From assembly GCF_032911445.1 (NCBI RefSeq), contig NZ_JAWJEJ010000001.1, forward strand, positions 2,666,001-2,730,000: a stretch of DNA of 64,000 nt, written 5' to 3'. The notes beneath the pieces are model-generated. The model was not told the origin of the DNA and did no database searches. It saw only the letters and a list, made by a program, of their open reading frames with translations. This DNA comes from Sphingomonas sp. HF-S4. Its GTDB lineage: Bacteria; Pseudomonadota; Alphaproteobacteria; Sphingomonadales; Sphingomonadaceae. This document shows positions 26,588-63,382 of the stretch, in pieces. The number at the start of each line of letters is the position of its first letter. Position 1 is the stretch's first letter. A program made the translations under genes and the position numbers.

Positions 26588-27727
26588 GTGAATTCACAGC
26601 CGATTTCCGCTCGCATCGCCGATGGCGTCGCCTCGATCCCCTCGTCGCAGTGGGACGCGTGTGCAGGATCTGGCAATCCGTTCGTCGGCCATGGCTTCCT
26701 GTCGATCCTCGAACGCTCGGGATCGGCCACTGCGCGCGCAGGGTGGCAGCCGCTGCCGATCGTGATCGATGGGGCCGACGGCCGCCCCGCCGGCATCGTG
26801 CCCGCTTATGTGAAGGCGCACAGCCAGGGCGAATATGTCTTCGACCATGGCTGGGCCGACGCCTGGGAGCAGGCGGGCGGAAGCTATTATCCCAAGCTCC
26901 AGATCGCCGTGCCGTTCACGCCGGTGCCGGGGCCGCGGCTGCTGTTGCGCGATTCCGCACTGGCGGCCCCGCTGATCGCAGCGATCGAGGCCGTGACCGA
27001 CCAGAACGAACTCTCCTCGGCGCATGTCACCTTCGTCGACGAGGGCCAGCTGCCGTATTTCGAGGCGGCGGGCTGGCTGGTGCGCGCGGGGACGCAGTTC
27101 CACTGGCAGAACCAGGGCTATGCCAGGTTCGACGACTTCCTCGCCGCGCTCGCCAGCCGCAAGCGCAAGGCAATCCGCAAGGAGCGCGCCGCGGCAGTGG
27201 AAGGGCTAACGATCCGCCATTTGACCGGCGCCGAGATCACCGAGGCGCATTGGGATGCGTTCTGGAGGTTCTACCAGGACACGGGATCGCGCAAATGGGG
27301 GCAGCCCTATCTGACCCGCGCATTCTTCACGCTGCTCGGGCACGAGATGGCCGACCGGGTGCTGCTGATCCTCGCCGAGCGCGATGGCGTCCCGATCGCG
27401 GGCGCGCTCAACCTGATCGGCGAGGATGCGCTGTACGGCCGCTATTGGGGCGCCACCGAGGAGGTGCCCTTCCTCCATTTCGAGCTCTGTTATTACCAGG
27501 CGATCGACGCCGCGATCGCGCGCGGGCTGGCGCGGGTCGAGGCGGGCGCGCAGGGCGAGCACAAGCTCGCGCGCGGCTATGCCCCGGTGACGACGTGGTC
27601 GGCGCACTACATCCCCAACCCCGGCTTCCGTCGCGCAGTGGCGGACTTCCTGGCACGCGAGCGCGAGGCGGTCGAGCGCGAGCAGGAATGGCTCGGCGAG
27701 ATGATGCCGTTCAGGCGCGAGGGGTGA
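26588..27727 (+). CDS. GNAT-fold acyltransferase, COG3146 type
   Basis: A 379-residue cytosolic protein of the COG3146 (DUF482) family, related to FemAB-type N-acyltransferases. Family segments are WDACAGSGNPFVGHGFLSILERSGS, KAHSQGEYVFDHGWADAWEQAGGSYYPKLQIAVPFTPVPGPRLL and FHWQNQGYARFDDFLAALASRKRKAIRKER, ending with EAGAQGEHKLARGYAP. Many annotations call it peptidogalycan biosynthesis protein, but the reaction is not shown. It begins with GTG at 26588 with only a weak ribosome binding site. It converges on the GT-C-like operon with a long palindrome between. Confidence 0.88.
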   Translation: MNSQPISARIADGVASIPSSQWDACAGSGNPFVGHGFLSILERSGSATARAGWQPLPIVIDGADGRPAGIVPAYVKAHSQGEYVFDHGWADAWEQAGGSYYPKLQIAVPFTPVPGPRLLLRDSALAAPLIAAIEAVTDQNELSSAHVTFVDEGQLPYFEAAGWLVRAGTQFHWQNQGYARFDDFLAALASRKRKAIRKERAAAVEGLTIRHLTGAEITEAHWDAFWRFYQDTGSRKWGQPYLTRAFFTLLGHEMADRVLLILAERDGVPIAGALNLIGEDALYGRYWGATEEVPFLHFELCYYQAIDAAIARGLARVEAGAQGEHKLARGYAPVTTWSAHYIPNPGFRRAVADFLAREREAVEREQEWLGEMMPFRREG

Positions 27728-27734
27728 CAGATTG

Positions 27735-27860
27735 ATCCTCCCCCGGAGGGGGAGGTGGCAGGCGCAGCCTGACGGAGGGGTACTCTCCGCGGGCGACGTC
27801 GCTTGTGGAGACTACCCCTCCACCGCTTCGCGGTCCCCCTCCCCCTCCGGGGGAGGAATT
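27735..27860. repeat. Long imperfect palindrome (REPIN-like) between convergent genes
   Basis: Two arms of about 55 bases (27735-27790 and 27805-27860) are inverted copies of each other; both begin with ATCCTCCCCCGGAGGGGGAG-like sequence and both contain GGAGGGGTA. A short spacer separates them. It fills the gap between the acyltransferase and the convergent membrane-protein gene and likely folds into a strong hairpin on either strand, so it may also stop transcription. The paired, inverted arm design is that of a REPIN; no RAYT transposase is in the window. Confidence 0.7.
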
Positions 27861-47088: not shown

Positions 47089-47111
47089 TCCCCTCCCTGA
47101 AAGGGAGGGGA
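47089..47111. terminator. Perfect 10-bp hairpin between convergent genes
   Basis: TCCCCTCCCT (47089-47098) pairs with AGGGAGGGGA (47102-47111) over a three-base loop. It lies between the stops of the Coq4-like gene and the minus-strand exported protein gene. The arm core matches the palindromes in recF and before hom. Confidence 0.65.
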
Positions 47112-48734: not shown

Positions 48735-49922
48735 ATGGCCGTCACGCGTCTCGTCCTCACCGATTTCCGCAACCATCGCGACGCCGTGCTGGCGCCGGGG
48801 CCCGGCTTCGTCGTGCTCACCGGCGAGAACGGCGCGGGCAAGACCAACGTGCTCGAAGCCGTCTCGCTGCTCGCCCCCGGCCGCGGCCTGCGACGGGCGC
48901 CGCTGTCGGAGATGGTGCGGCAAGGCGGCACCGGCGGATTCGGCGTGGCGGCTGACCTTCTTCAAGCCCCTCCACTTCAGGGGAGGGGTTGGGGGTGGGG
49001 CCTGTCAGTCTCACCGAGCCTGTCGCCTGCGGACAGTCCCCACCCCAACCCCTCCCCTGAAGGGGAGGGGCTTATCTCGCTCGGCACCGGCACCCAGCCC
49101 GACGCGCCCGAGCGCCGGCTGGTCCGGATCAACGGTGCCACCGCCGCCGCCGCCGCGCTCGCCGAATGGGTAACGGTGCTGTGGCTCACCCCGGCGATGG
49201 ACCGGCTGTTCGTCGAGGGCCCCGGCGAGCGCCGCCGCTTCCTCGATCGCCTCACCCTCGCGCTCGCCCCCGGCCACGCGCATCATTCGACGCGCTACGA
49301 AGCCGCGATGCGCCAGCGCAACCGCCTCCTCGCCGACGACGCCCCCGCCGATCCCGAATGGCTCACCGCGCTCGAAGCCCGCATGGCCGAGCATGGCGCG
49401 GCGATCGACGCCGCGCGCCGCGATGCGGTGAACGCGCTTGCCGAACGCCTCGCCGCCCAGCCCGAAACCGTCTTCGCCCGCGCCGGCCTGGCGATCGAGG
49501 GCTGGCAGGGCGATGCCGACACCCTGGCCCGAGAACTGCGCGACGGCCGCCGCCGCGATGCCGCCGCGGGCCGCACCCTGTCCGGGCCGCACCGCGCCGA
49601 CCTGCTCGTCACGCATCTCGGCAAGCACCAGCCCGCGCATCTCTGCTCGACCGGCGAGCAGAAAGCGCTGCTGCTCGGCCTCGTCCTCGCCCATGCCGAG
49701 CTCGTCGCGGACCGCGTCGGCCGCGCGCCGATCCTCCTGCTCGACGAAGTCGCCGCGCATCTCGATCCGGGCCGGCGGGCGGCGTTGTTCGAGCGGCTGG
49801 CGGGCGGCGGCCAGGTATGGATGACCGGCACCGAGCCCGAACTGTTCGAGGCGGTGCCCGGCGGCGCGACGCGCTACACGGTCACGCACGGCACGATCGA
49901 CGAGGCCAGGAGACAAGCATGA
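48735..49922 (+). CDS. recF: DNA replication and repair protein RecF with an in-frame repeat insertion
   Basis: A 395-residue SMC-like ATPase that loads RecA at gapped DNA. Walker A is [18 protein letters not shown] near residue 30, the signature region is [17 protein letters not shown], and Walker B is [16 protein letters not shown] near residue 335. The family is usually about 355-365 residues; here residues about 76-113 are extra and are encoded by the palindrome 48966-49071. The flanks FGVAADL and [20 protein letters not shown] would normally be adjacent. The stop overlaps the downstream hypothetical gene by four bases. Whether the enlarged RecF is functional is unknown, but the frame is intact. 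Confidence 0.95.
48966..49071. repeat. REPIN-like palindrome inside recF
   Basis: Left arm 48966-49006 and right arm 49032-49071 are inverted copies over 40 bases with few mismatches; both share CAGGGGAGGGGTTGGG-type sequence. A 25-base spacer separates them. A related palindrome lies at 63241-63382. The whole unit is read in frame through recF. Confidence 0.85.
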
Positions 49923-63240: not shown

Positions 63241-63382
63241 TCCCCTCCCTGCAAGGGAGGGGCTAGGGGTGGGTCAGCGGCGGACGGGGCTCGATGCCCC
63301 GGCCGTCGCTTTGTTGTCGGGCGTAGGGCTCGGAGCTTTGCTCCTCGCACCCACCCCCAGCCCCTCCCTTTCAGGTAGGGGA
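63241..63382. repeat. REPIN-like palindrome upstream of hom
   Basis: Arms 63241-63274 and 63349-63382 are inverted copies over 34 bases with about four mismatches; the arm is TCCCCTCCCTGCAAGGGAGG-like, then GGGTGGGT. A 74-base spacer separates them. The arm closely resembles that of the palindrome inside recF. It ends 15 bases before the hom start. Confidence 0.8.

Follow-up and report, generated by a model that had tools for sequence, protein, structure and literature searches.

The recF gene of Sphingomonas sp. HF-S4 carries a palindromic repeat that is read as part of the protein, and this raises the question of how such a repeat came to lie within a conserved repair gene and what keeps it there. 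The locus was analysed within a window of 64,000 nt (the whole stretch of DNA studied), and the features discussed below are located in Table 1.

The palindromic element in recF

The open reading frame of recF continues uninterrupted across an inverted repeat of about 110 nt, the arms of which are 36 nt each, 92% complementary and separated by 38 nt. An initial inspection of the DNA by itself (hereafter the sequence-only reading) had described two inverted arms of 40 bases translated in the recF frame. The inversion was borne out and the frame, as read from the DNA, does run through both arms, with the arms being shorter than described. A search of the window with the right arm, allowing up to three mismatches, matched the two arms only, with no such match in 100 shuffles. 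As RNA, the element folds into one long stem (−89.6 kcal/mol, z −8.76), with none of 200 shuffles being equally stable. The RecF of the nearest relative without the insert, Sphingomonas sp. LM7 (P0008), has 359 residues, which gives the window RecF a gain of 36 residues, in agreement with the earlier estimate. The residues flanking the insert had also been expected to be adjacent in the usual RecF, which is nearly correct: two to a few turn residues (e.g., GD) separate them in ordinary RecF proteins.

Table 1. Location of recF, its palindromic element and related repeats in the window
Feature	Position	Strand	Basis
recF, 395 aa, with translated repeat	48735..49922	+	ORF; Pfam SMC_N; the 11 best Foldseek matches of the structure model are RecF entries
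Whole type-A palindromic element, 110 nt, in frame	48964..49073	+	Inverted-repeat search; genome copies
Left arm, contains short hairpin CCCCTCCACTTCAGGGGAGGGG	48964..48999	+	Inverted-repeat search
Spacer between arms	49000..49037	+	Inverted-repeat search
Right arm, contains short hairpin CCCCTCCCCTGAAGGGGAGGGG	49038..49073	+	Inverted-repeat search
Related palindromic element, other subfamily, directly before hom	63241..63382	+	Hairpin core CCCCTCCCTGCAAGGGAGGGG; hom by NCBIfam
Single short hairpin of the before-hom subfamily	47090..47110	+	Sequence match

Copies of the repeat in the genome and in other genes

Searching the HF-S4 genome (4.44 Mb in 3 contigs) with the element by blastn gave 56 matches at E ≤ 0.001 (both strands, fragments included), among which are 20 distinct places of at least 51 nt, 16 of these being at least 100 nt (counted by hand). 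The sequence-only reading had suggested counting the arm across the genome and looking for further copies in coding frames; there are about 20 copies, and those in recF, dnaE and mutL do lie in coding frames. A looser pattern built on the hairpin core, with up to two mismatches, gave 156 matches per strand and none for the reversed control, and it also catches other subfamilies. The family of the window recF element is here called type A and the CCCCTCCCGCTTGCGGGAGGGG elements type B, both names being coined in this analysis. Full type-A copies read roughly AAGCCCCTCCCCTTCAGGGGAGGGGTTGGGG(T)GGGG ... CCCCACCCC(C)AACCCCTCCCCTGAAGGGGAGGGGCTT. The element preceding hom, which had been placed in the same family, is present and related, with the different hairpin core of another subfamily (Table 1). 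Another inverted repeat (TCCTCCCCCGGAGGGGGAGG) lies at window positions 27736–27857, just beyond the end of the ORF at 26588–27727.

The type-A copies have terminal inverted repeats (ends AAGCCCC...GGGGCTT), as do MITEs, and no target site duplication was evident by eye in the HF-S4 copies, which were viewed without a clean empty site aligned to the base. In REPINs, which occur with a RAYT transposase, two short hairpins in inverted orientation flank a spacer. The type-A element is built likewise, but differs in that no resident Y1-type transposase (PF01797) was matched in the HF-S4 genome, with controls giving a match in 5 of 14. Within the genus, 90 of 101 genomes were without a PF01797 match. 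A resident Y1 transposase was therefore dropped as the mover, and no transposase was identified for the repeats. An Rfam search returned 25 matches at E ≤ 1 in 4 loci, mostly to microRNA models, none of which reached its family gathering score. The idea that the element has been shaped to read open in every frame was rejected, as 43 type-A elements were open in 2.72 of 6 frames compared to 3.50 in shuffles. We infer that the insert is a non-autonomous palindromic repeat with a REP-dimer-like build, which would have spread mostly outside genes.

Repeats read in frame are a known kind of event. According to the main text of PMC3733652 (2013), intragenic REPs occur in many bacteria, many of them in replication and repair genes (dnaE of Rickettsia conorii included), some within tRNA synthetases, with two Xanthomonas species having theirs in recB at roughly one position; neither recF nor mutL appears in that main text. 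The GTAG- and CGTC-tagged REPs treated there consist of two inverted hairpin units and are present in many, mostly intergenic, copies. The type-A element resembles these in its paired inverted hairpins, its many mostly intergenic copies and its presence in some repair genes, but its hairpin feet do not consistently carry a GTAG or CGTC tag (judged by eye over 24 rows of HF-S4 copies, some of the same place). The likeness to the in-frame palindromes of Rickettsia (RPEs, Rickettsia palindromic elements, which were reported before 2013 and are reviewed in PMC10969869), which had been pointed out from the sequence, is a fair one for a repeat translated in frame. In Wolbachia, in-frame inserts like WPEs (Wolbachia palindromic elements) have been described in addA, addB and priA (PMC4224334). 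Like RPEs and WPEs, the present repeats are palindromic, have several genomic copies and lie in frame in housekeeping and repair genes, and in recF, dnaE and mutL they are absent from close homologues, as is characteristic of RPE-like elements. They differ in the organisms concerned and in the GC-rich core of the sphingomonad element (CCCCTCCCCTTCAGGGGAGGGG), the likeness being one of build and location. The event reported here is thus of a kind already known, in an unusually strong form, and the general phenomenon is not new. The portions of PMC4224334 and PMC10969869 that were available contain no account of several families recurring at one codon gap, and a literature search, which was weak and mostly left subscription papers out of scope, found no report of such inserts in sphingomonad recF.

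Genic copies were surveyed at 65 distinct type-A places (fragments included) in the genomes of HF-S4 and of MAG-45 (G258, recF locus L117). Eight of these passed a codon-usage test on both sides. Four more (mutL of HF-S4; leuS, murD and mutL of G258) fell below the threshold but were kept, since the protein around the repeat could be recognised; NCBIfam confirmed the three G258 genes, and Pfam domains on both sides confirmed HF-S4 mutL. The resulting 12 of 65 places in genes are recF, dnaE and mutL of HF-S4 and recF, uvrA, mutL, ileS, leuS, glyS, murD, rnr and ispDF of G258, with the rnr product lying above the 3′-exoribonuclease cut-off and just below that for RNase R. The murD of another genome (G004) has an insert at about the same place as murD of G258. 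Repair genes as the sole targets can thus be rejected, since ileS, leuS, glyS, murD, rnr and ispDF carry inserts as well. About 40 further HF-S4 loci, which represent type B, the related subfamily and short hairpins of type A, yielded 15 candidate frames that stay open over 150 nt to either side; Pfam searches of 10 frames (7 of these 15 and 3 of type A) found none with a recognised domain on both sides and three with one on a single side.

Two of these proteins show a similar pattern among their homologues. For DnaE, 36 of 120 homologues were longer at one site, at about residues 310–360, mostly through repeats of at least four kinds as distinguished by eye, and in the linker of MutL similar repeat insertions were seen in the 60 of 120 homologue rows viewed. 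One of the DnaE repeat kinds is translated as PVRPELVEG...FDKLSPNG.

Recurrent insertion at one turn of RecF

The 120 best RecF homologues mostly have 353–359 residues with the motif GFGVAAxLGDVEIGTG. Fifteen of them, the window's own RecF included, have at least 26 extra residues at the turn, of several repeat types, and a metagenome protein from another assembly (P0002) has a similar insert. The stretch corresponding to residues 75–78 of P0008 is by far the most length-variable of RecF among 120 close homologues, and non-repeat variants of 1, 4, 7 and 12 residues also occur at this turn.

The recF DNA was compiled from 30 loci from 61 relatives, 30 loci from 295 genomes of the genus (291 of which matched), 80 named GTDB loci, and 30 loci plus 14 stretches from 48 genomes picked for matching in two or three pieces, some of these split matches stemming from contig breaks. 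Of these 184 loci, 182 had both halves (L196 and L198 were dropped) and 155 were distinct after 27 duplicates had been merged. An insert of 90–201 nt was present at the same place in 40 of the 155 sphingomonad loci, a proportion that is not a frequency since the set was enriched for inserts on purpose. The 40 include L234 and L236, and the length of 123 for L234 is not a pure insert length, its second half beginning past a lost strand. At least two repeat families, in different frames, are represented. All 40 inserts are multiples of three and none has a stop within the insert or the matched RecF stretch; the chance that 7 to 12 independent insertions of random length would all be multiples of three is 5e-4 to 2e-6. 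This bears on the possibility that the hairpin is excised from the mRNA, or passed over during translation, giving a RecF without the extra residues. The extreme stability of the stem would suit such a process, but neither excision nor skipping would demand that every insert keep the frame and be free of stops, and this explanation is considered very improbable.

A tree of 153 RecF rows was built with the insert columns excluded and with L232 and L235 (gaps of 26 and 37 nt, no insert) left off. It requires at least 10 changes of insert presence, 7 of them forced by starred branches, and 12 changes when three states (none, A or B, assigned by hand) are used; the tree is the product of a rapid search with no bootstrap values, leaves 53 of its 150 forks open and includes some long branches. 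The inserts have independent origins, because type A occurs in two reading frames in recF, type B has other ends, sequence and frames, and neighbouring rows differ in type (L129 with A and L201 with B; L205 with A beside L137 and L195 with B). As far as was searched, the recurrence of several repeats at one recF codon gap is apparently a new detail. It amounts to a natural replicated insertion experiment, in which unrelated sequences were gained or lost at least 10 times at a single site of the protein, and opens to test the question of why repair genes come to hold palindromic repeats.

The sequence-only reading had regarded a palindrome in a repair gene of a sphingomonad as a rarity, a view that does not hold given the filled recF sites, the like insertions in dnaE and mutL and the in-frame palindromes of repair genes already published (PMC3733652). 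Its alternative of an ancient domain also fails, because the nearest relative has no insert, other relatives carry different repeats at the spot and no conserved sequence is seen there. That the site is filled in many relatives might be taken to favour either an old RecF domain or an assembly artefact, but the HF-S4 genome is in only 3 contigs, similar inserts are found in other assemblies, and the more distant recF genes that were read are without a repeat there, so that this explanation is scarcely credible. A RecF match was obtained in 108 of 115 genomes across the class; no repeat-like insert was found at the turn in the 12 recF loci that were read (8 class-wide loci with split or late-starting matches and 4 from other Sphingomonadales), the remaining class-wide genomes being judged solely by their unsplit RecF matches. 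One of these genes (G403) has about a dozen extra residues at the turn which are not repeat-like. Other loops, before the first strand and after the GTG motif, also vary in length among the 12 distant loci, and the turn is therefore not the sole tolerant place in the family.

To place the insert in the protein, an AlphaFold model of the window RecF was made from an alignment of 53 sequences, with a mean pLDDT of 92.1 and values of about 48–55 in the insert; an earlier model from 43 close homologues had given a mean of 53. In the model the insert sits between strands 70–76 and 113–121, and in an alignment to 2o5v two segments enclose its site within a short stretch that is taken to be a hairpin turn. 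The model thus supports a loop position and suggests that the element fills the turn of a beta-hairpin. RecF probably tolerates a disordered loop here, in view of the length variation among homologues and the placement of the insert in a low-pLDDT turn of the model.

Frequent insertion filtered by the tolerance of the protein is considered the best reading of the recurrence, and a fairly probable one. One copy would have landed in the short turn between the two strands, ribosomes would read straight through it, the roughly 36 extra residues would form a disordered loop and RecF would stay functional. If hardly any other part of sphingomonad RecF is as tolerant of added residues as this turn, open-frame copies of unrelated families would survive there and others would be lost, giving an apparent hot spot from scattered insertion.

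The main competing explanation is that the mobilising enzyme favours the DNA of the turn as its target, with tolerance being secondary. In independent events, and from one repeat family to another, the insert borders fall near each other, in several events no more than about a codon from the strand ends, which is tighter than a loose filter demands, and the distant recF loci vary in other loops yet hold no repeat at the turn. Moreover, the 64-nt nested element described below has entered one type-A and one type-B element at the same CTCC in the 3′ arm, and at least one of these repeats may therefore be choosy. Against this, 30 empty recF sites compared by eye differ in sequence, with no common motif beyond a Leu codon; unrelated families use the turn; the DnaE and MutL sites differ in sequence; and small non-repeat length changes occur at the same turn. 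Targeting is accordingly viewed as rather doubtful.

It should also be noted that some recF loci have defects in this region. The frame is broken near the turn, without a repeat, in G110 (L232) and G067 (L235) and downstream of the insert in G249 (L236), and these may be pseudogenes or sequencing errors. L157 (Sphingomonas sp. Leaf208) lacks the residues VAATL ahead of the insert together with one insert end, and L234 (G177) lacks the strand after the insert, again with one insert end, the frame being kept in both. RecF may thus be non-working in 3 of the 40, as judged from a lost strand (left in L157, right in L234) or a frameshift downstream of the insert (L236).

Conservation of the element and a nested third repeat

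To follow the element over time, one clade (S. faeni, S. aurantiaca and kin) with 25 rows and a type-B insert in common was used. Twenty-three rows were retained (L234 and L236 omitted), and codon positions were analysed in the 20 with an intact insert, the degraded inserts of L153, L190 and L157 being omitted as well. Differences by codon position were 0.043/0.015/0.297 in the left recF flank and 0.008/0.003/0.225 in the other flank. In the insert they were 0.070/0.099/0.025 and 0.017/0.100/0.026 in the arms and 0.097/0.158/0.062 in the spacer, and the residues appended to the insert differed by 0.31–0.51 at all codon positions. The element core differs by 7.1% compared to 28% at four-fold sites, and was below the four-fold value in every one of the 190 pairs, with a bootstrap difference of −0.26 to −0.16. 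On the basis of these codon-position differences and the comparison with four-fold sites, the recF copy in this best-sampled clade shows strong nucleotide conservation without an amino-acid or codon signature. A freely decaying passenger is rejected for this clade, the core lying far below four-fold sites. Such nucleotide-level conservation inside an open frame is apparently a new detail as far as was searched, and opens to test whether translated repeats, too, are preserved at the level of DNA or RNA.

Other copies with matching flanks were compared among three genomes and differed on average by 7.8% (13 comparisons, range 2.8–19.4%, intergenic and genic copies not being separated), the three recF pairs in the same comparison differing by 2.8–5.5%. 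The recF pairs resemble the other comparisons and the recF copy therefore behaves like other family members. The adjacent 110-nt flanks differ by 6–32%, and for some pairs the element is hardly slower than the flank. The recF copy is not likely to have been converted as a whole from paralogues: within G071 and G216 it is the recF copies that match the G208 recF copy best (97% and 94%), with non-recF copies at 90% or less. The slow evolution of the arms implies a further influence on the element in addition to protein tolerance. Hairpin constraint and homogenisation of shared parts with sister copies are both possible causes, and it would be the nucleic acid of the element, not the peptide, which is conserved.

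These results also bear on a proposal made in PMC3733652, by which the inserts would be adaptive, tuning repair proteins and raising mutability. The in-frame targets do include recF, dnaE, mutL and uvrA, the same bias towards repair genes is described for other phyla in the main text of that paper, and recombination genes of Wolbachia carry such inserts (PMC4224334). The peptide, however, shows no codon-level constraint in the clade tested, its sequence, length and frame vary between events, and the six genes outside repair listed above also carry inserts, making adaptation an unlikely explanation. As regards annotation, it should be kept in mind that 30–60 residues of RecF, and like stretches of DnaE and MutL, are repeat DNA and not domains.

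A third repeat was found nested within the element. Compared to the near-twin L195, the recF insert of S. pruni (L137) has a 64-nt branched hairpin in place of CTCC in the 3′ arm (net +60 nt), and in L117 a like element replaces CTCC at the same place with the same net gain, as judged against the type-A consensus. The nested element folds at −39.4 kcal/mol (z −4.94). A query with the nested element found no copy in the genomes of HF-S4, LM7 (G187) or S. pruni (G148); the last gave no match even though L137 holds a diverged copy, and such absences therefore mean little. A third repeat nested in frame is, as far as was searched, apparently a new detail too.

The genome G258 holds five nested copies (L370, L372, L373 and L374 among them), four of which lie within the translated type-A elements of recF, mutL, uvrA and rnr. 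The counts of 4 of 9 genic and 1 of 32 other copies, which are approximate and were entered by hand post hoc (the 65-place survey would give about 35 non-genic copies), correspond to a Fisher p of 0.0055, or 0.02 without the discovery copy, and this enrichment is a lead only. It is tentatively suggested, with a small likelihood of being right as a whole, that selection on the hairpin, or else gene conversion, maintains the recF copy, with the protein merely tolerating it, and that the smaller third element prefers translated copies in which the frame is kept. The four genic copies are read in one frame as near-identical peptides (GRSGSQPDLNSAGRYSP and variants), and in mutL of G258 the nested copy lies inside the 5′ arm.
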